Under the pieces are notes generated by a model. That model saw nothing but the letters and a program-made list of their open reading frames with translations. It did not search any database and had not been told where the DNA came from. The translations under genes were made by a program, and so were the position numbers. From Chitinophagales bacterium (GTDB taxonomy: Bacteria > Bacteroidota > Bacteroidia > Chitinophagales > CAIOSU01): DNA of 64,000 nucleotides. Position 1 is the first letter of the stretch, and each line of letters begins with the position of its first letter. The stretch covers positions 1,634,591-1,698,590 of the forward strand of contig BPHB01000001.1 of the NCBI GenBank assembly GCA_026003335.1. The letters run 5' to 3'. Below are positions 55,816-64,000 of this stretch, piece after piece.

Positions 55816-57879
55816 ATGAAGTCAAAAGAGCATCTGATATCTGAAAATCCAAGACGGATTACTAGACTACTGATATTCTGGATGCTGATATCATTTCACA
55901 TTGACTCTCCGGCACAGCCTCCGCACCTGTGGATACGGGCTACTGGTACTGATTGCCAGGCAAGGGCAACCGGCATAGCCGTGGATAACAACGGCAACGT
56001 ATTTGAAGCCGGCTATTTCAGGTCAACCATTTCTAATTTTGACACTACCTTATATGAGTCACCATTTTTCACCGGATTATTATACCGGAATGATACGTAT
56101 CTGTTTAAATATGATTCGCTCGGAAATTTTATCTGGGCGCTAAAAGCTGAAAATTCTTATGAGGATAGTCCCAATGGGATAGTTACGGATGCTGCAGGTA
56201 ATGTATATGTATCAGGATTATATTATGGCGACACACTTACCTTTGGCGGTTTGACAACCACGCATACCGGTCACCTGAATATTAAAGCTTATTTGCTGAA
56301 GGTCAGTCCGGCCGGAACTCCTGTTTGGCTCAGGACCTTTTATGCACCAAGTGACCCTAACGGGTTTCTGAGCTGGGGAATGTGGCTGAATGATATGACC
56401 ATAAATTCCAATCAGGAGCTGATTGTAACCGGCACTATCCGCACCGACTCTTCCCATATTGACGGGTTTATAGTGAAAAATCATGGTGTTAACGGTAGCC
56501 ATACCGATTTCTTCGTAGCAAAATTTAATACCACAACAGGCACAGCCATATGGGTGAAACAGGCCATCAGCGTGAATGGCTATGAAAATGTAGAACAGAT
56601 TACCGTGGACGGGCAAAATGCTATTTATGTGTGCGGTCACACTATCAGTAACACGCTAACGATGGACAACTTTACATTGCAGGCGGCTTCTATCAGCCCA
56701 TCAAATGAAGCGTTTATCTTCAAATTATCTGATTCCGGAGCCGTGCTTTGGGCTGACCGCTTTGGAGCGCCCAACTCGCAAAAGCTCACGCAGGCGCAGG
56801 GCATCACCGTTGACCATTCGGGAAATATTTATGTGGCCGGTGAATTCAGTTCCACAGAATTGCAATTTGGTTCATTCCTGCTTCAAAATAACAATACCCA
56901 ACTGCTCTCCAACGGCTCGCGCGATTTATTTGTAGCAAAATACAACGCTCAGGGAGTAAAGCAATGGGTGAAGGGAATTACGCACAATCTGAATTATGAT
57001 TATTCAGAAAGTATCTTCCGCCTCCAAACCGGTGCCGATAACAATATATATGCCGTAGGTATGTTTCGCGGACAATCCATTACATGGGACAGCATTACTG
57101 TATTTAATTCCATACCCACAGCCACTGCCAGTTCTGCTTACAATCGTATTGACCCTTTCATAGTAAAGTTTGACGCAGACGGTATCCCTTTTTGGATAAA
57201 AACACTGCACAATTCTACTTACAACCATAACCTGCACGATGAAACCCTCACCCGATTTGTTTTGGATAATGGCAATAATTTCTACGGGGCGGGCTTCCTG
57301 CTTACCACTACCCTGGGCTTACTGGTGGATACAACCATTTATTTCCATCCGCTTCCCGGTCCGGACAACTGCAGCAACTCACGGGATGCTTTTATCATAA
57401 AAATACAAGGAACCATGAACTGGTCCGGACCAGATTCCTGCGGTATCACCGTATGTGATGATGGAAATGTCTGTACTATGGATTCCTGCATGAACGGGAT
57501 CTGCGTGTTCACACCCATCATCTGCGATGATGGCGACTCCTGTACAACAGACAGCTGCGACCCGCTGATCGGATGTGTATATACTCCAATTACTGGATGT
57601 GGGGTGAGTGTGAAAGCAACTACTTGGTTTTACGAAAACATCAGCGTATATCCTAATCCTTTCTCGTCACATGCGGTTTTAAATCTAACCACCCCCATTC
57701 GGAACGGCTCGCTGCACATTACTGATTTGACGGGAAAATCCAGAATGATGCTCCGGAATATCGCAGGTGATGTAATTCGCATTGAAAGAAAAAACCTGCC
57801 TGACGGCATTTATGTATTTCATTTAATGGAAAATCAATCACATATCGGCTTGGGAAAACTCGTAATTATTGATCAATAA
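55816..57879 (+). CDS. Secreted SBBP-like repeat protein, T9SS type A cargo
   Basis: This 687-residue exported protein has a signal-anchor-like N-terminus (ITRLLIFWMLISFHIDSPAQ) and seven or so SBBP/beta-propeller-type repeats: GIAVDNNGNVFEAGYF, GIVTDAAGNVYVSGLYYG, TVDGQNAIYVCGH, GITVDHSGNIYVAGEFSS and others, each with a FKY or AKYN strand. Near residues 540-595 a Cys-rich stretch (CDDGNVCTMDSC, CDDGDSCTTDSCD) matches the CTDC repeat first described in Dictyostelium proteins and found in some bacteria. A type A sorting domain (about 604-687, VYPNPFSSHAVLNL ... GIYVFHLME) ends it. The function of such propellers is structural or binding; no enzyme motif is seen. Confidence 0.85.
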   Translation: MKSKEHLISENPRRITRLLIFWMLISFHIDSPAQPPHLWIRATGTDCQARATGIAVDNNGNVFEAGYFRSTISNFDTTLYESPFFTGLLYRNDTYLFKYDSLGNFIWALKAENSYEDSPNGIVTDAAGNVYVSGLYYGDTLTFGGLTTTHTGHLNIKAYLLKVSPAGTPVWLRTFYAPSDPNGFLSWGMWLNDMTINSNQELIVTGTIRTDSSHIDGFIVKNHGVNGSHTDFFVAKFNTTTGTAIWVKQAISVNGYENVEQITVDGQNAIYVCGHTISNTLTMDNFTLQAASISPSNEAFIFKLSDSGAVLWADRFGAPNSQKLTQAQGITVDHSGNIYVAGEFSSTELQFGSFLLQNNNTQLLSNGSRDLFVAKYNAQGVKQWVKGITHNLNYDYSESIFRLQTGADNNIYAVGMFRGQSITWDSITVFNSIPTATASSAYNRIDPFIVKFDADGIPFWIKTLHNSTYNHNLHDETLTRFVLDNGNNFYGAGFLLTTTLGLLVDTTIYFHPLPGPDNCSNSRDAFIIKIQGTMNWSGPDSCGITVCDDGNVCTMDSCMNGICVFTPIICDDGDSCTTDSCDPLIGCVYTPITGCGVSVKATTWFYENISVYPNPFSSHAVLNLTTPIRNGSLHITDLTGKSRMMLRNIAGDVIRIERKNLPDGIYVFHLMENQSHIGLGKLVIIDQ

Positions 57880-58035: not shown

Positions 58036-58290
58036 ATGGAAAAACACAACAGACGAGAATTCATCAAAATAACCGGCAAAACTCTGCTGTTGACTTCTGC
58101 AATATCGGTAACAGGATTAATCTCGTCTTGCAAAAAAGATGATGATGGGTTCTACGATGACGGATACTATGATGACGGATACTACGATGACGGATACTAC
58201 GATGACGGGTATTACGATGACGGGTACTATGATGACGGGTACTATGATGACGGATATTACGATGATGGTTACTACGATGATGGATATTGA
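58036..58290 (+). CDS. Tat-type lipoprotein with YYDDG pentapeptide repeats
   Basis: The 84-residue product has a twin-arginine motif (NRREFIK) at residues 5-11, a hydrophobic segment and a lipobox ISSC (Cys32), so it is probably exported through Tat and lipidated. After CKK, the whole mature protein is DDDG-F followed by nine YDDG units in a strict five-residue period (DDG at residues 36-38, then every five residues to 81-83), ending in Tyr. It thus exposes about 21 Asp and 18 Tyr. The third-position bases vary between copies (TAC/TAT, GGA/GGG/GGT, GAT/GAC), so the repeat is kept at the protein level. No family is recognised; calcium or metal binding, Tyr crosslinking or glycosylation are possibilities only. 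Confidence 0.75.
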   Translation: MEKHNRREFIKITGKTLLLTSAISVTGLISSCKKDDDGFYDDGYYDDGYYDDGYYDDGYYDDGYYDDGYYDDGYYDDGYYDDGY

Positions 58291-58331: not shown

Positions 58332-60449
58332 ATGCTCAAAGCTGCTTTCCTGCACGACACCGACAGTACTTTTCCTGGGTGTGCAGAATTATTTGGCAAG
58401 GCAATTCTGGAAGTAAGTATGCAACATGGCGTGTATGCCGTGTATGACAATCTTACTGATTTCGGCAAAACCAAGGCACTGATTCACGAAAGTGATTTCG
58501 TTATCGTCAACAACACAGTAAAATGTAAGTATGTATTGCAGTTGATAGATTTTCTGGTGCATTGTGGTAAACCCTATGTGAAATGGGAGCATGATTACAA
58601 CTTCTGCACAAAGCGCACCGCCATTTGCTTCGTGGATCGCAAAGTGAAAGGGTGCTGCGACCGCGAGCGGTTCACTGCTTACCGGAAATTATTTGCACAT
58701 GCCAAACTTTCGGTTTTCGCCTCTCCGAAGCATTATGAACTCCACCGGGAAATTTATGGCGAGGCGATTCAACACCCTTTCATCCTGCCACCACCTGTTG
58801 ACGGTGCACACATTCGTCTACTGCCGAAAGAGAAAAACACCGTTTGCTTCATTGGCGATTTGCGATTTAAAAAAGGCGGAAACCGGTTGATTGATTTCGC
58901 CAACGAGAATCCCCACTTTCGCATTGAAGTGTACGGCAGCAACCTGACAGGGCGCACACTGCCGCCAAATATTACGCTAAAAGAAAAAAGACGGAACACT
59001 GAAATACATGAAGCAGTGGCGAAAGCAGAATATCTTTTCCTCCAGCCCGTGTGGCCCGATCCTGACGGCAGAGTGGCAGCTGAGGCATTTTTGGCAGGAT
59101 GCAAAACCATCGGCAATGCAAACGTGGGGTTTCATTCCTTTCCGTTTTATCCCACTCATCCTGAAGAGGCAAGGGAAGCAATACGCAATGCGCCCCATTT
59201 GTTTTGGGAAAAGGTGAAGGAGGCAGTACATGCGCCCGAAAAAAAAGTGCGCTGGAAAAATGTTTTAGTGTTTAAAAGTTTCGGAGGGCTGGGGGATTTT
59301 CTGTTTACCATTCCCGCATTGCATAAAATTGCGGGCGTATCAGAAAAAGTCACTGTTTGCGTTCCGAATGCCTTGCATGGTTTATTGAAAAAGCAGCTCC
59401 CACAATATGAAGTTCAATCCGAAGATTTCATTAAAACAGCCCACCTTTCCGATTATGATAAAATTATTGACCTGAGCAACTACCCCTCTTATCGGGGCGA
59501 CCCGCACACCTATAAAATACCATTTCCTTCGTATCGCAGAATCAGGCAGCATGCCTTCCGGCATTATCTGGATGGCGTTGCCACGCTGCATCCCGAAATA
59601 GACAACGCCTGCGATAGATTCCCTTATTTACAATCATCGGTTGCACCAAAAGAAATATATTTTACCGTACATCCGGGAGCAGGTTTCGCGGCAAAATACT
59701 GGAACCTCTGGAAATACGGGAAGCTGATTCAAAACCTGCTCGACTTGTTTCCCCACCTGCATTGCAAACTGATTCTCGGACCGAATGACCCCAAGCCGGA
59801 AGAGTTGTTTGAAATAATTCCGGAGCGCGTTTCCATTCCGAAAGGCAATCTGGAAATGATTGCGGATGTGTTGGCAGGAGCCCTGTTCCATGTGGGCAAC
59901 GATTCGGGGATGACGCATCTAGCGGGCGCATTCAACACGCCCACCGTTACCATTCACGGACCTACCGGACCCGGCACATGGATGAGTTTTGCCGAACACA
60001 AGGAGCTGATCTGGGGCAAAGCGGGCGTGTGCAACATTCCGTGTAACTATGATACGGCAATTAACTGCGCGCACCGGATTTGTCTGAACTCTGTTACAGT
60101 AGAGCGTGTGCTGAAGCACGTTTTGAAACTGCTGCAAAATATTTTGCCACAACAGAAAAAATTCAGATATATTTTCAATCCCGATGCGCAGGTGCAGCCG
60201 CAGGAGGATGCGTGGATTATTCACTCGGGTGAAAAAGAGTTGCTGATTGAATTTTCGGCAACGGACGAAAAGCAGTGGTTTGAAATGCTTGTGAAAAATG
60301 CATTGCAGCCCGGCTATTTTTCGGAATCGTTCAACGCCCTGCTGGAAGTACTGCAGGAAAATGAGATGCTGTTTAAAGTGCCCGACTTACGCGATAGCGC
60401 TATACAAAAAAATAAATTGCCAAAAACAAACATGGTAACGAAAGCATAA
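58332..60449 (+). CDS. Two-domain glycosyltransferase (GT4-like plus GT9)
   Basis: This 705-residue cytoplasmic protein joins two glycosyltransferase units. Residues 1 to about 305 form a GT-B type transferase (PFILPPPVDGAHI, FIGDLRFKKGG, FLQPVWPDPDGRVAAEAFLA), close to families GT4/GT1-like. From about 313 it continues as a GT9 (heptosyltransferase-like) domain: VFKSFGGLGDFLFTIPALHK, FTVHPGAGFAAKYWN and FHVGNDSGMTHLAGA. An extra C-terminal segment of about 80 residues follows. GT9 enzymes transfer heptose or related sugars to LPS core or other glycans; the sugar here is unknown. It starts 42 nt after the YYDDG gene and is followed by another glycosyltransferase gene. Confidence 0.88.
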   Translation: MLKAAFLHDTDSTFPGCAELFGKAILEVSMQHGVYAVYDNLTDFGKTKALIHESDFVIVNNTVKCKYVLQLIDFLVHCGKPYVKWEHDYNFCTKRTAICFVDRKVKGCCDRERFTAYRKLFAHAKLSVFASPKHYELHREIYGEAIQHPFILPPPVDGAHIRLLPKEKNTVCFIGDLRFKKGGNRLIDFANENPHFRIEVYGSNLTGRTLPPNITLKEKRRNTEIHEAVAKAEYLFLQPVWPDPDGRVAAEAFLAGCKTIGNANVGFHSFPFYPTHPEEAREAIRNAPHLFWEKVKEAVHAPEKKVRWKNVLVFKSFGGLGDFLFTIPALHKIAGVSEKVTVCVPNALHGLLKKQLPQYEVQSEDFIKTAHLSDYDKIIDLSNYPSYRGDPHTYKIPFPSYRRIRQHAFRHYLDGVATLHPEIDNACDRFPYLQSSVAPKEIYFTVHPGAGFAAKYWNLWKYGKLIQNLLDLFPHLHCKLILGPNDPKPEELFEIIPERVSIPKGNLEMIADVLAGALFHVGNDSGMTHLAGAFNTPTVTIHGPTGPGTWMSFAEHKELIWGKAGVCNIPCNYDTAINCAHRICLNSVTVERVLKHVLKLLQNILPQQKKFRYIFNPDAQVQPQEDAWIIHSGEKELLIEFSATDEKQWFEMLVKNALQPGYFSESFNALLEVLQENEMLFKVPDLRDSAIQKNKLPKTNMVTKA

Positions 60450-60507: not shown

Positions 60508-61188
60508 ATGTTAAATAGTTGCTCCATGCAAGCGTACAAAACCATCAGCATCGTTTCCTGCGCCCGCGAGCCTTCTTACCTCGCAGACACCCTGCGCAGT
60601 ATTGAAGAACCCGGTATAGAAGTGGAAATATTTTATCAATCCAAAGATGGAGGTCAGGATATTCCCGCTCTGCGGCAGGAATACAACTGTGCCATTCCAC
60701 GCGTTTATCTCACCGAAAAAATGTACGATGAAGTGCAGCTCAACGGACAGTACAACTATGCCGAAACACTACTTAATACCAAAGACGGATTGATTCTGGA
60801 AGATGATGTGCAAGTTTCAAAAAAATTCATGCAGTATCTGCGCGAAGTGGAAAAACTCATTCCCGATGAAAAAAGCATTGTGACGCTTTACTCTATTAAA
60901 AAATGGAACGACAGCAACAAGTTTGAGCTGATTAAGCTCGCTTCTTCCCATTTCCGCCATACGCAGGCAATGCTCTATCCCGTGCCCGTTGCACGCGCTT
61001 TCGGGCAGCATATCCTGGATCACTTCGGTGCCGAGCCGTATGACAATGCCCTGCGTACCTTTTGCCGCCTGCATGGAACAAAAATTTATGCCGTGAACTA
61101 TTCATTGGTGCAACACATCGGCAAAGTCACCACGGGACTCGGCTATCATCATCAGTCCAGAAATTTTGCGGATGATTTTCTGTCATAA
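60508..61188 (+). CDS. Small GT-A type glycosyltransferase
   Basis: This 226-residue protein begins with the Rossmann-like strand TISIVSCAREPSYLADTLRS and carries the acidic nucleotide-sugar/metal motif LILEDDVQVSKKFM near residue 97. That layout fits a GT-A transferase, closest in feel to GT25/GT54-like proteins with an E-D-D motif. Either Met1 (60508) or Met7 (60526) may be used. No signal peptide is seen. It follows the two-domain glycosyltransferase by about 58 nt and may act on the same glycan. Donor and acceptor are unknown. Confidence 0.75.
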   Translation: MLNSCSMQAYKTISIVSCAREPSYLADTLRSIEEPGIEVEIFYQSKDGGQDIPALRQEYNCAIPRVYLTEKMYDEVQLNGQYNYAETLLNTKDGLILEDDVQVSKKFMQYLREVEKLIPDEKSIVTLYSIKKWNDSNKFELIKLASSHFRHTQAMLYPVPVARAFGQHILDHFGAEPYDNALRTFCRLHGTKIYAVNYSLVQHIGKVTTGLGYHHQSRNFADDFLS

Positions 61189-61282: not shown

Positions 61283-64000
61283 ATGTTTGTATCAGAATCC
61301 ATGGGCGTGCTTGCAACAGCATTTTTACGATACTATCTTCACATCGTGAAATCCAAAATGCTCTTTGTCGTAGCAGGTATAATCGTGGGCTACGCCTGTG
61401 CAGGGGGTACAGTGTACGAGCTCTACCCCAACTTCCATACGATCGGCATTATGGTAGTATCCGATCAACCCTTCCCACCCAATGTGACAACTTCTGTGCA
61501 CTATGAGGAAAACATCCAGGGCAACTGGAGTGCAGTAAAACAGGGATTGCCGTTATCCAGAGTCAGTGCATCTCAATATGCCGGATGCATTTTGCAGACA
61601 AAACCCGGCACGATGTATCGCATCCGGTGCATCATTATGGACAGCACCACAGTGCTGTTTGACCAAACCGACACGGCAACGGCACGAAATGAGCCTGCGC
61701 ACGTACCCGCCCAGCGAGTGTTTTATGTAAGCCCAGGAGGCTCGGGCATTTCACAGAACATCACCAGCCCCGGCAGTCTGGATCAATCTTTGTTGGATAT
61801 CCTGCAGGCCGGTGACAAAATACTGTTGCTGCCGGGCACCTATTTTACCGGAGGCCTCCAAATAAAGAGCAGCGGCACCGCGCAACAGCCCATAGTCTTT
61901 GAAGGTGACCCCAACGTGGTCTTGGATGGCTCCTTTGCCACACCCATTCAATGGACCCGCGTATCCACCGACACCGCCCATCGGGATTACAACATGTTTT
62001 TGGCAACACTTGGCCCGGTCAATACAAATTGCGTGGTGGCAAATGGAAAAAGGCTCTATCCCTATCGCAACCTTCTGGAGCTTTCGCTCTTTCAAACCAT
62101 CCGACTGATTGACGCCAATGGATACATCTCAGGAAATTTTGATATTGCCCTGGACGGATTTTTCAGGGATGGACGCAACCCCTCGGGAAATTATTTCCCT
62201 TATACCGGCTACAACCCCAACACGTATATCAAATTCACGGATGGCTCGGATACCACGGGGAAAACCATACATGTCTCCAGGCAAAGTTTTGCCTTCAGCG
62301 CAGCCGGCCAGTCGCACATCAGGTTCAGCAATATCACCTTCCGGTATTTCGGTGCAGGCACCACCCGCACGGCATTGCATTTTACCGACTGCGATGATCT
62401 GCTTATTGATAGTTGTCATTTTCAATTCTGCGACCGCGGAGTTTCATTTTATGGAAATGCCGACAACAACATCATCCAGCATTGCCGCTTTGACGATGAT
62501 TTGGGTGACTGGACTTATTTCCAGTTTAAGGAGACCAACGTGGATTATGGACAGCCCAATACTTTTTACCCCAACTTCTTTCCTTTTGCATTTCGCAACA
62601 TGGAACCCGGCCGGGTATATTTTGACCGGGATTTTACAGGCCGGGGTAATGTCATACGGTATAATGTCTTCAATGGCCTGTGTGATGGCATTACCTGCCC
62701 TTCCAGTCCCGGTGATTCCACCACCAGCAGGCATTTTGATATCTATGGCAATACGTTCATGCATGGCGCAGACGATGCCTTTGAGGTGGATGGCAACGCC
62801 TCCAACATCCGCATCTGGGATAATGTCATCCACGATGTAGGCGGCATTTCCGTTGCTCCTCCCTGTTATGGTCCGGTGTATATGTTCCGCAACGTCTTCT
62901 ATGACCTCCCGCAGGACCACTATGAATACATTTATTGGGATATCACAGGCTATCATCTGCACTCGGAGCCTGTGAGTACATCTCCGTTGAAGCTCAACGC
63001 CAGCTATTGCGATCTGCCAGGGGAAATCTATTTTCTGCATAACACCTGCGATGCCGGACCACAGGGACGCGGATTCTATATCCAGCAGCCGCAAGCCCAA
63101 TCCAGCTGGGCAAACGTCATTTCAAGGAACAACATTTTCTACGTTGAATCCAATGAACCGGTGCTCTGGATAAGAGGCACCGATAAAATTGACCTTGACT
63201 ACAACAATTACTACTGCACGCAAACCTTCACTGCCCGGCAGGACCGCCCCGGATATGGATTGTATCACAGCCTGCAGGAAGTATCGCAAAATATTTTAGG
63301 CGATATAAATGATTCCGCTTCGTTCATTGAAACACACGGCTACCAGCTGGATCCATCAGCAGGATGGAAGAATGAGCCTGCGCATGACTACCACCTGCTG
63401 CCTGCCTCAAACATGGTGGATAAAGGCATCCTCATTCCCGGAGTAAACGATGATTTCAGCGGGGCAGCGCCTGACCTGGGTGCATTTGAACTGGTTGTGC
63501 AACGCTCGGAAGATACTGCCTATCACCAAGCGTTAATCACCGATACTACCTACATCCGCGACACGATCACATCCGTGCAAGCCGGAATTACCGATACCAT
63601 TGTAATAAGCGCTGCCGCAGTGAGTTGCGATTCTCTTATGCGGCAAGGAAGTGCATGGGCTATCACTGATTCTTTGTTCCTGAATGATACCTTATTCATA
63701 CACGAAACTTTAAACATACAGGATACGCTTATTGTCGGTTGCACTATTTTCATTACAGACTCCCTGTTCATTCCCGGTGTTGCCAACGGCTGGAAAGGGT
63801 TGCCTGATGATCTGCCCCGAATCTTTCCCAACCCTAATGCTGGTTATTTTTATTTATCGCTGCCTGTCGGCTGGAATAAAAAAGATGTTACCCTGCATAT
63901 TTATGATTTGTCGGGAAAGGAAATCCCGCACACCTGGAACAAAGATGCTGATAACGGAGCGGTGCAGGTGGATAACCTGCATGCACAGGGCGCTTACCTG
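61283..64000 (+). CDS. Secreted beta-helix protein, T9SS cargo (3' end cut)
   Basis: The frame is open from 61283 to the window end without a stop, giving at least 906 residues. A hydrophobic export segment (KSKMLFVVAGIIVGYACAGG) near residues 22-42 suggests the true start may be GTG 61346 or ATG 61358. A fibronectin-like region follows, then a right-handed beta-helix of the pectate-lyase/glycan-lyase kind (about 150-720: FYVSPGGSG, ILLLPGTYFTGG, IRFSNITFRYFG, NVIRYNVFNGLCDG, FDIYGNTFMHGADDAFEVDG). A linker of about 100 residues repeats xDTLxI-type units (FLNDTLFIHETLNIQDTL). A type A sorting domain begins at about 844 (IFPNPNAGYFYLSLP) and is truncated by the edge. The substrate is likely a polysaccharide, inferred from the fold. 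Confidence 0.85.
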   Translation, partial: MFVSESMGVLATAFLRYYLHIVKSKMLFVVAGIIVGYACAGGTVYELYPNFHTIGIMVVSDQPFPPNVTTSVHYEENIQGNWSAVKQGLPLSRVSASQYAGCILQTKPGTMYRIRCIIMDSTTVLFDQTDTATARNEPAHVPAQRVFYVSPGGSGISQNITSPGSLDQSLLDILQAGDKILLLPGTYFTGGLQIKSSGTAQQPIVFEGDPNVVLDGSFATPIQWTRVSTDTAHRDYNMFLATLGPVNTNCVVANGKRLYPYRNLLELSLFQTIRLIDANGYISGNFDIALDGFFRDGRNPSGNYFPYTGYNPNTYIKFTDGSDTTGKTIHVSRQSFAFSAAGQSHIRFSNITFRYFGAGTTRTALHFTDCDDLLIDSCHFQFCDRGVSFYGNADNNIIQHCRFDDDLGDWTYFQFKETNVDYGQPNTFYPNFFPFAFRNMEPGRVYFDRDFTGRGNVIRYNVFNGLCDGITCPSSPGDSTTSRHFDIYGNTFMHGADDAFEVDGNASNIRIWDNVIHDVGGISVAPPCYGPVYMFRNVFYDLPQDHYEYIYWDITGYHLHSEPVSTSPLKLNASYCDLPGEIYFLHNTCDAGPQGRGFYIQQPQAQSSWANVISRNNIFYVESNEPVLWIRGTDKIDLDYNNYYCTQTFTARQDRPGYGLYHSLQEVSQNILGDINDSASFIETHGYQLDPSAGWKNEPAHDYHLLPASNMVDKGILIPGVNDDFSGAAPDLGAFELVVQRSEDTAYHQALITDTTYIRDTITSVQAGITDTIVISAAAVSCDSLMRQGSAWAITDSLFLNDTLFIHETLNIQDTLIVGCTIFITDSLFIPGVANGWKGLPDDLPRIFPNPNAGYFYLSLPVGWNKKDVTLHIYDLSGKEIPHTWNKDADNGAVQVDNLHAQGAYL

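Follow-up and report, generated by a model that had tools for sequence, protein, structure and literature searches.

The repeat lipoprotein gene

Why would a bacterium send a short peptide made almost entirely of one five-residue repeat through the Tat pathway? The question is raised by an 84-residue open reading frame on the forward strand of the window (the whole stretch of 64,000 nucleotides that we analyzed), between positions 58036 and 58290, whose translation reads MEKHNRREFIKITGKTLLLTSAISVTGLISSC-KKDDDG-FYDDG-(YYDDG)8-Y. A twin-arginine leader (RREFIKITG...) runs into the lipobox ISSC (58036-58131), with the acceptor Cys32 encoded at 58129-58131; KKDDD follows the cysteine (58132-58146), and the repeat array, consisting of one FYDDG, eight exact YYDDG units and a last tyrosine, occupies 58150-58287. 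The ten DDG units counted in a previous sequence-only reading are all present, and the array scored 194 in Tandem Repeats Finder, the top of eight rows in the window. The Tat leader and lipobox proposed in that reading also hold, as the leader is conserved in a family of homologs and TatC is encoded in the window's genome (E = 4e-61); generic TAT-signal models gave weak matches to 5-8 of 18 repeat-protein members. Searches of Pfam and NCBIfam returned no family for the repeat protein, in line with the earlier opinion that the design has no name.

The residues after the lipobox cysteine, KKDDD, match C-X-K-(D/E)2-X, the minimal surface-export signal (LES) of Bacteroidetes lipoproteins (PMC5080379), and this match makes display of the protein at the cell surface likely. 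The corresponding stretch in homologs is mostly of the SSDDD or SDDD type, versus KKDDD in the window. The eight YYDDG units differ from one another at 12 nucleotides, every one of them a third codon position, and between adjacent units of 68 distinct family arrays we counted 1238 third-position differences versus 127 at first or second positions. This excess, which had been noticed before in the single array, indicates that the frame and design of the protein are maintained by selection on the peptide and are not the result of recent slippage.

A family of repeat proteins

A scan for the pattern DDGYYDDGY in one genome per species yielded 95 stretches, which on translation separated into scattered unrelated proteins and a coherent set from Flavobacteriaceae. 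Matches in Rhodothermales, Blautia, Streptomyces and others belonged to proteins with neither the leader nor the enzyme described below and were discarded, as were the third match among the Bacteroidota genomes (G394, an unrelated protein), an apparent HHDDG array (L067) that was the antisense of a DTMMM repeat, and the composition look-alikes that were all a protein search against 60 relatives returned. The design is common to about 60 Flavobacteriaceae loci, in Aequorivita, Psychroserpens, Flavobacterium, Hanstruepera, Altibacter, Planktosalinus and other genera, where the leader M-x-RR-x-F-[IL]-K-K-[ST]-G-[QK] precedes a lipobox, then come an acidic stretch and an array that in most cases counts 4-18 repeats. 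Across 61 distinct leaders, RRxF[IL]K is conserved at positions 1-6 and position 9 is glycine in 59. Most of these proteins terminate in repeats; some homologs continue past them into a beta-type C-terminal domain of about 110 residues or a T9SS tail. The majority are repeat-only, and the frame is conserved, which speaks against the concern that the repeat might be a variable tail of a larger Tat protein or a frame lost in relatives.

The domain of about 110 residues (WKVASYIDSGVDETSDYNGYTVDF...) follows the repeats in the long forms of L127, L120 and similar loci. It is unnamed, its L120 member had no match in Pfam or NCBIfam, and it possibly adopts a beta-rich, glycan-binding or lipocalin-like fold. 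In Altibacter lentus (L062, L121), a single enzyme gene is preceded by two tandem repeat lipoprotein genes, one of the short and one of the long form.

Linkage to a glycosyltransferase gene

The functional unit extends past the repeat gene, as a partner glycosyltransferase gene (58332-60449, forward strand) begins 41 bases downstream. The sequence-only reading, which recommended a homolog search and a comparison of neighbors, had missed this gene; on carrying out that comparison, we found a homolog of it to be the next same-strand gene in 57 of 59 assessable non-redundant loci, with a median gap of 69 bases (range -4 to 183, a 4-base overlap occurring once). In one of the two exceptions a second repeat gene intervenes and the enzyme comes after it (L024), while in the other the repeat gene is followed by a stand-alone copy of the enzyme's C-terminal domain (L032). 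The latter is a second locus of Hanstruepera ponticola, whose genome also has a full pair (L033); it comprises the repeat gene, the stand-alone domain and a GT2 gene, and could be a variant of the system in minimal form or else a remnant. At another locus (L138, in G817) the enzyme match contains one in-frame TGA, and this copy is possibly decaying.

Presence and absence across genomes follow the same pattern. Of 395 Bacteroidota genomes, the 2 that carry the enzyme are also the 2 that carry the repeat, and among 399 Flavobacteriaceae genomes all 24 with the exact repeat fell among the 28 with the enzyme. Three of the remaining four carry variant repeats directly upstream (YYGDG in one, a degenerate form in another, and YYVDG/YYMDG/YYEDG/YYNDG in the third), and the locus of the fourth lies at a contig end; counted in this way, 27 of 27 assessable enzyme-bearing Flavobacteriaceae have a repeat protein directly upstream. 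The Fisher values for co-occurrence, 1e-5 and 1e-34, are both made too optimistic by shared ancestry. Moreover, when the enzyme was later found in a genome from another family of the window's order (G875), the gene directly upstream coded for a protein with YYSDG-YYSDG, as the linkage predicts. The leader of that protein matches at 20 of 31 residues, and its two repeats are followed by a T9SS sorting tail. As it has no second arginine and no lipobox, Tat export and lipidation are not universal in the family, and its sequence shows lipidation to be exchangeable for T9SS secretion. Both genes are absent from the closest relatives of the window's genome, so the pair was gained or lost as a unit, and a search of plasmids found no relative other than generic heptosyltransferases. 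Judged from these comparisons, the link between the repeat protein and the enzyme is about as firm as comparative genomics allows.

Domain organization of the partner enzyme

The 705-residue enzyme is made up of three parts. Residues 1-300 (58332-59231) form a GT4-like half, with a weak match to Pfam Glycos_transf_1, and residues 308-604 (59253-60143) form a GT9 half (Pfam Glyco_transf_9, E = 4e-16). An alignment of 35 members revealed invariant cysteines in both halves: Cys92, 99, 108 and 109 in the first, and Cys567, 571, 579 and 584 (60030-60083) in the second. The AlphaFold model of the enzyme has a pLDDT of 82, and its nearest Foldseek matches are WaaC, a Veillonella GT9 protein and TibC, followed by Gtf3/GtfC of serine-rich-repeat glycosylation; by sequence, the nearest solved proteins are WaaC and WaaF. 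In a maximum-likelihood tree of the enzymes, the window copy sits on a long branch and joins the copies from Psychroserpens algicola and G660 (support 100/100), separate from the remaining forms of Flavobacteriaceae; with branches this long, its exact position is unsure.

The final 75-80 residues form a separate domain (residues 611-690, 60162-60401), the one that exists by itself in H. ponticola. We modeled this stand-alone homolog with AlphaFold (pLDDT 94) and compared it with 350,542 PDB chains using Foldseek. The best 16 matches were all RRE-bearing RiPP proteins and not generic winged helices, and they included ThcOx, TruD, McbB, a cyanobactin heterocyclase, PbtF and MccB, with probabilities of 0.75-0.99, TM-scores of up to 0.67 and E-values of 0.06 or worse. 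RiPP recognition elements (RREs) are the clamps that hold the peptide in pathways for modified peptides. PqqD/RRE sequence profiles gave no meaningful Pfam match in 40 members, and there was no sequence relative in the PDB. The strict definition of an RRE demands the element order bbb-aaa with three helices (PMC12710340), whereas our model reads bbbb-aa-b. Because of the weak E-values, the failed profiles and the departure from the three-helix rule, we call the domain RRE-like and not an RRE, the similarity being one of fold. On the basis of that fold, we propose that it may serve as a clamp for the precursor.

The glycosyltransferase modules vary by locus: GT4-GT9 in one arrangement, GT9 alone accompanied by a DUF5672-GT2 protein in another, GT2 alone in a third, and an extra GT4 in G875. 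The repeat and the RRE-like domain persist while these modules change, which is how a shared recognition system would be expected to look; an architecture that varies in this manner does not prove any single chemistry. A further open reading frame, GT25-like by weak Pfam matches (60508-61188, forward strand), is a possible third glycosyltransferase. Its membership in the unit is unproven and it has no homolog among the related loci, and we left it outside.

The tyrosines of the repeat

In 469 repeat units, the two tyrosine positions are occupied by tyrosine in 467 and 468 cases, respectively, while the third position tolerates G, N, E and C, and in variant arrays also V, M and S. The general O-glycosylation motif of Bacteroidetes is D-S/T, and the 2720 repeat residues analyzed contain six serines and no threonine. 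Considering the near absence of serine and threonine and the essentially invariant tyrosines, tyrosine is likely the only reasonable acceptor, provided that the repeats are O-glycosylated. Sugars linked to tyrosine have precedents in bacterial S-layers (PMC2943079) and, within a RiPP, in cacaoidin (PMC8068269), but in those cases the enzymes are different and the substrates are not tandem YYxDG lipoproteins.

A proposed two-gene glycolipoprotein system

We propose that the open reading frame at 58036-58290 encodes the precursor in a RiPP-like glycolipoprotein system of two genes, in which the repeats are glycosylated, most likely on tyrosine, a reading to which we assign a probability of roughly 0.6. 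It builds on what the sequence and its comparison across genomes establish, namely the anatomy of the precursor, the presence of TatC, the linked enzyme with its domains, the strict co-occurrence and the constraint on YYxDG. The precursor, with its Tat leader and tandem YYxDG array, would be held by the neighboring enzyme through the C-terminal RRE-like domain, while the glycosyltransferase domain or domains would glycosylate the repeats, with an O-link to tyrosine as the most likely attachment. Since this modification would take place in the cytoplasm, the finished precursor would then leave via Tat, its leader would be removed, Cys32 would be lipidated, and the KKDDD signal would direct the lipoprotein to the outer face of the cell; there it would display its glycans in a row, densely packed and evenly spaced. 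The Tat pathway accepts material already finished in the cytoplasm, and glycosylation there fits this export route; according to our proposal, the repeat peptide takes the Tat route because it is modified first. Glycosylation of the repeats is probable from the comparative evidence, and the display could serve in adhesion, in gliding or as a protective coat. Among the options listed in the sequence-only reading, that of a modification substrate is the one best suited to a linked glycosyltransferase with an RRE-like domain.

We give even odds to a further claim, that these loci represent a class of gene-encoded glycopeptides that is new. In this reading, a lipoprotein exported by Tat and anchored at the surface would be hyperglycosylated on the tyrosines of its tandem YYxDG repeats by a dedicated cytoplasmic glycosyltransferase guided by an RRE-like domain, and the glycosyltransferase modules would be exchanged between loci while clamp and repeat stay constant. 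The open-access library that we searched, whose scope leaves out most subscription journals, held no paper on such a system, and its single occurrence of "YYDDG" was in an unrelated polymer paper; within the libraries searched, no described family or paper covers it. If the proposal is true, it joins precursor-guided peptide modification through RRE-like clamps with bacterial protein glycosylation, and tyrosine glycosylation gains a system of just two genes, minimal in genetic terms, in which the sequon of five residues is readable and the natural substrate offers multiple sites, which makes it attractive for glycoengineering. It would also provide a concrete reason for routing a disordered repeat peptide through Tat, namely to modify and then export, and it would predict that many Flavobacteriaceae of marine and fresh waters bear a glycan coat that has gone unnoticed.

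Alternative explanations

The lipoprotein might instead anchor or prime a longer polysaccharide at the surface, with the enzyme starting or extending a polymer on the tyrosines, in the manner of glycogenin, and not placing one short sugar on each repeat. Two glycosyltransferase halves within one protein, the third such domain in G875 and the DUF5672/GT2 protein that comes next in Psychroserpens-type loci would all suit a polymer. However, genes for a polymerase, a flippase or export do not recur next to the pair, and the unit is just two genes in most Flavobacteriaceae loci, so we consider this possibility unlikely, even if it is the strongest of the competitors.

Slightly less probable still is that the enzyme acts on lipopolysaccharide or another acceptor, with the repeat lipoprotein left unmodified and co-expressed in a helper role, for instance as scaffold or glycan receptor. 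The usual acceptor of GT9 and GT4 enzymes is lipopolysaccharide or capsule, the former being the classical one for GT9, the nearest solved sequences are those of WaaC and WaaF, and strict linkage of the pair holds for any acceptor. Against this, such a role explains neither the RRE-like domain nor why, in H. ponticola, this domain persists as a gene of its own, flanked by the repeat gene and the GT2 gene, and it offers no reason for near-invariant tyrosines beside a free third position. Furthermore, the HldE domain, a marker of the ADP-heptose pathway, is present in the window's genome and absent from 14 of 14 enzyme-bearing Flavobacteriaceae tested. We therefore rejected ADP-heptose as the general donor, and its use in Flavobacteriaceae seems unlikely on this genomic evidence.

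That the repeat is an unmodified acidic-aromatic polymer, binding calcium or iron or forming tyrosine crosslinks, appears quite improbable. The high content of Asp and Tyr would agree with it, and Tat is capable of exporting cofactor-loaded proteins, but substitution is free at one of the two acidic positions (YYGDG, YYVDG, YYMDG and YYSDG, and also N or E), with the tyrosine pair kept, and the earlier suggestion of a folded, metal-loaded passenger is not supported. The suggestion of tyrosine crosslinking fares no better, as the constant partner is a glycosyltransferase and neither an oxidase nor a metal-handling gene recurs beside the pair in related loci. Lastly, a chance or decaying reading frame with no function, which the simple tandem repeat and the patchy distribution (1 of 61 relatives) might suggest, is contradicted by the codon-position counts of the 68 arrays and by the conservation of the leader and of the linked enzyme across deep divergence, and can be practically dismissed.

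Relation to known systems

The proposed glycolipoprotein system resembles RiPP pathways such as those of ThcOx, TruD, MccB and PbtF in its short precursor with a conserved leader and a repetitive core, in the adjoining dedicated modifier, and in the small separable domain, which is predicted to have an RRE-like fold and also occurs as a gene by itself. It differs from them in having a GT4-GT9 fusion as its modifier, two helices instead of three predicted in the domain, a lipoprotein signal of the Tat type as the leader and, as the product, a surface protein anchored in the membrane in place of a released peptide.

With the bacterial autotransporter heptosyltransferases TibC/AAH (BAHT) it shares the GT9 fold, assigned by Pfam Glyco_transf_9 and by the presence of TibC among the top Foldseek matches, a set of four invariant cysteines towards the end of the GT9 domain and, as proposed here, a repetitive exported protein as the target of hyperglycosylation. 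TibC has an N-terminal beta-barrel and a four-cysteine iron finger (Cys339/342/358/370), and modifies serines of autotransporters with ADP-heptose as the donor (PMC4358343). The window enzyme, in contrast, has a GT4-like half and an RRE-like domain, and its cysteines are spaced x3-x7-x4, differently from those of the iron finger. It scored 21.5 bits against a cut-off of 200 with NCBIfam TIGR04414; serine and threonine are nearly absent from the repeats, and a supply of ADP-heptose is not indicated in the Flavobacteriaceae that lack HldE.

Gtf3/GtfC of serine-rich-repeat adhesins, which appear among the Foldseek matches, offer a parallel in a repeat protein glycosylated in the cytoplasm before a special export route, as we propose here. 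The likeness of the enzymes is one of fold, and those systems have a serine-rich acceptor, accessory Sec export, a Gram-positive host and no RRE-like domain. The Cys-Xaa-Xaa-Xaa repeat targets of radical SAM enzymes (TIGR04117) similarly combine a short leader and a repeated unit with a linked modifying enzyme, but the repeat residue and chemistry are different and no radical SAM enzyme recurs here; one of 18 members matches that model weakly, in the leader only (E = 0.002, 18 bits versus a cut-off of 50).

Finally, upstream of the repeat gene, at 55816-57879, lies the gene of a beta-propeller protein (SBBP) that has Cys-rich repeats of the Dictyostelium type as well as a T9SS tail, and the region from 61283 to 64000 codes for a large protein predicted as a right-handed beta-helix; it bears a T9SS sorting domain and continues past the end of the window.
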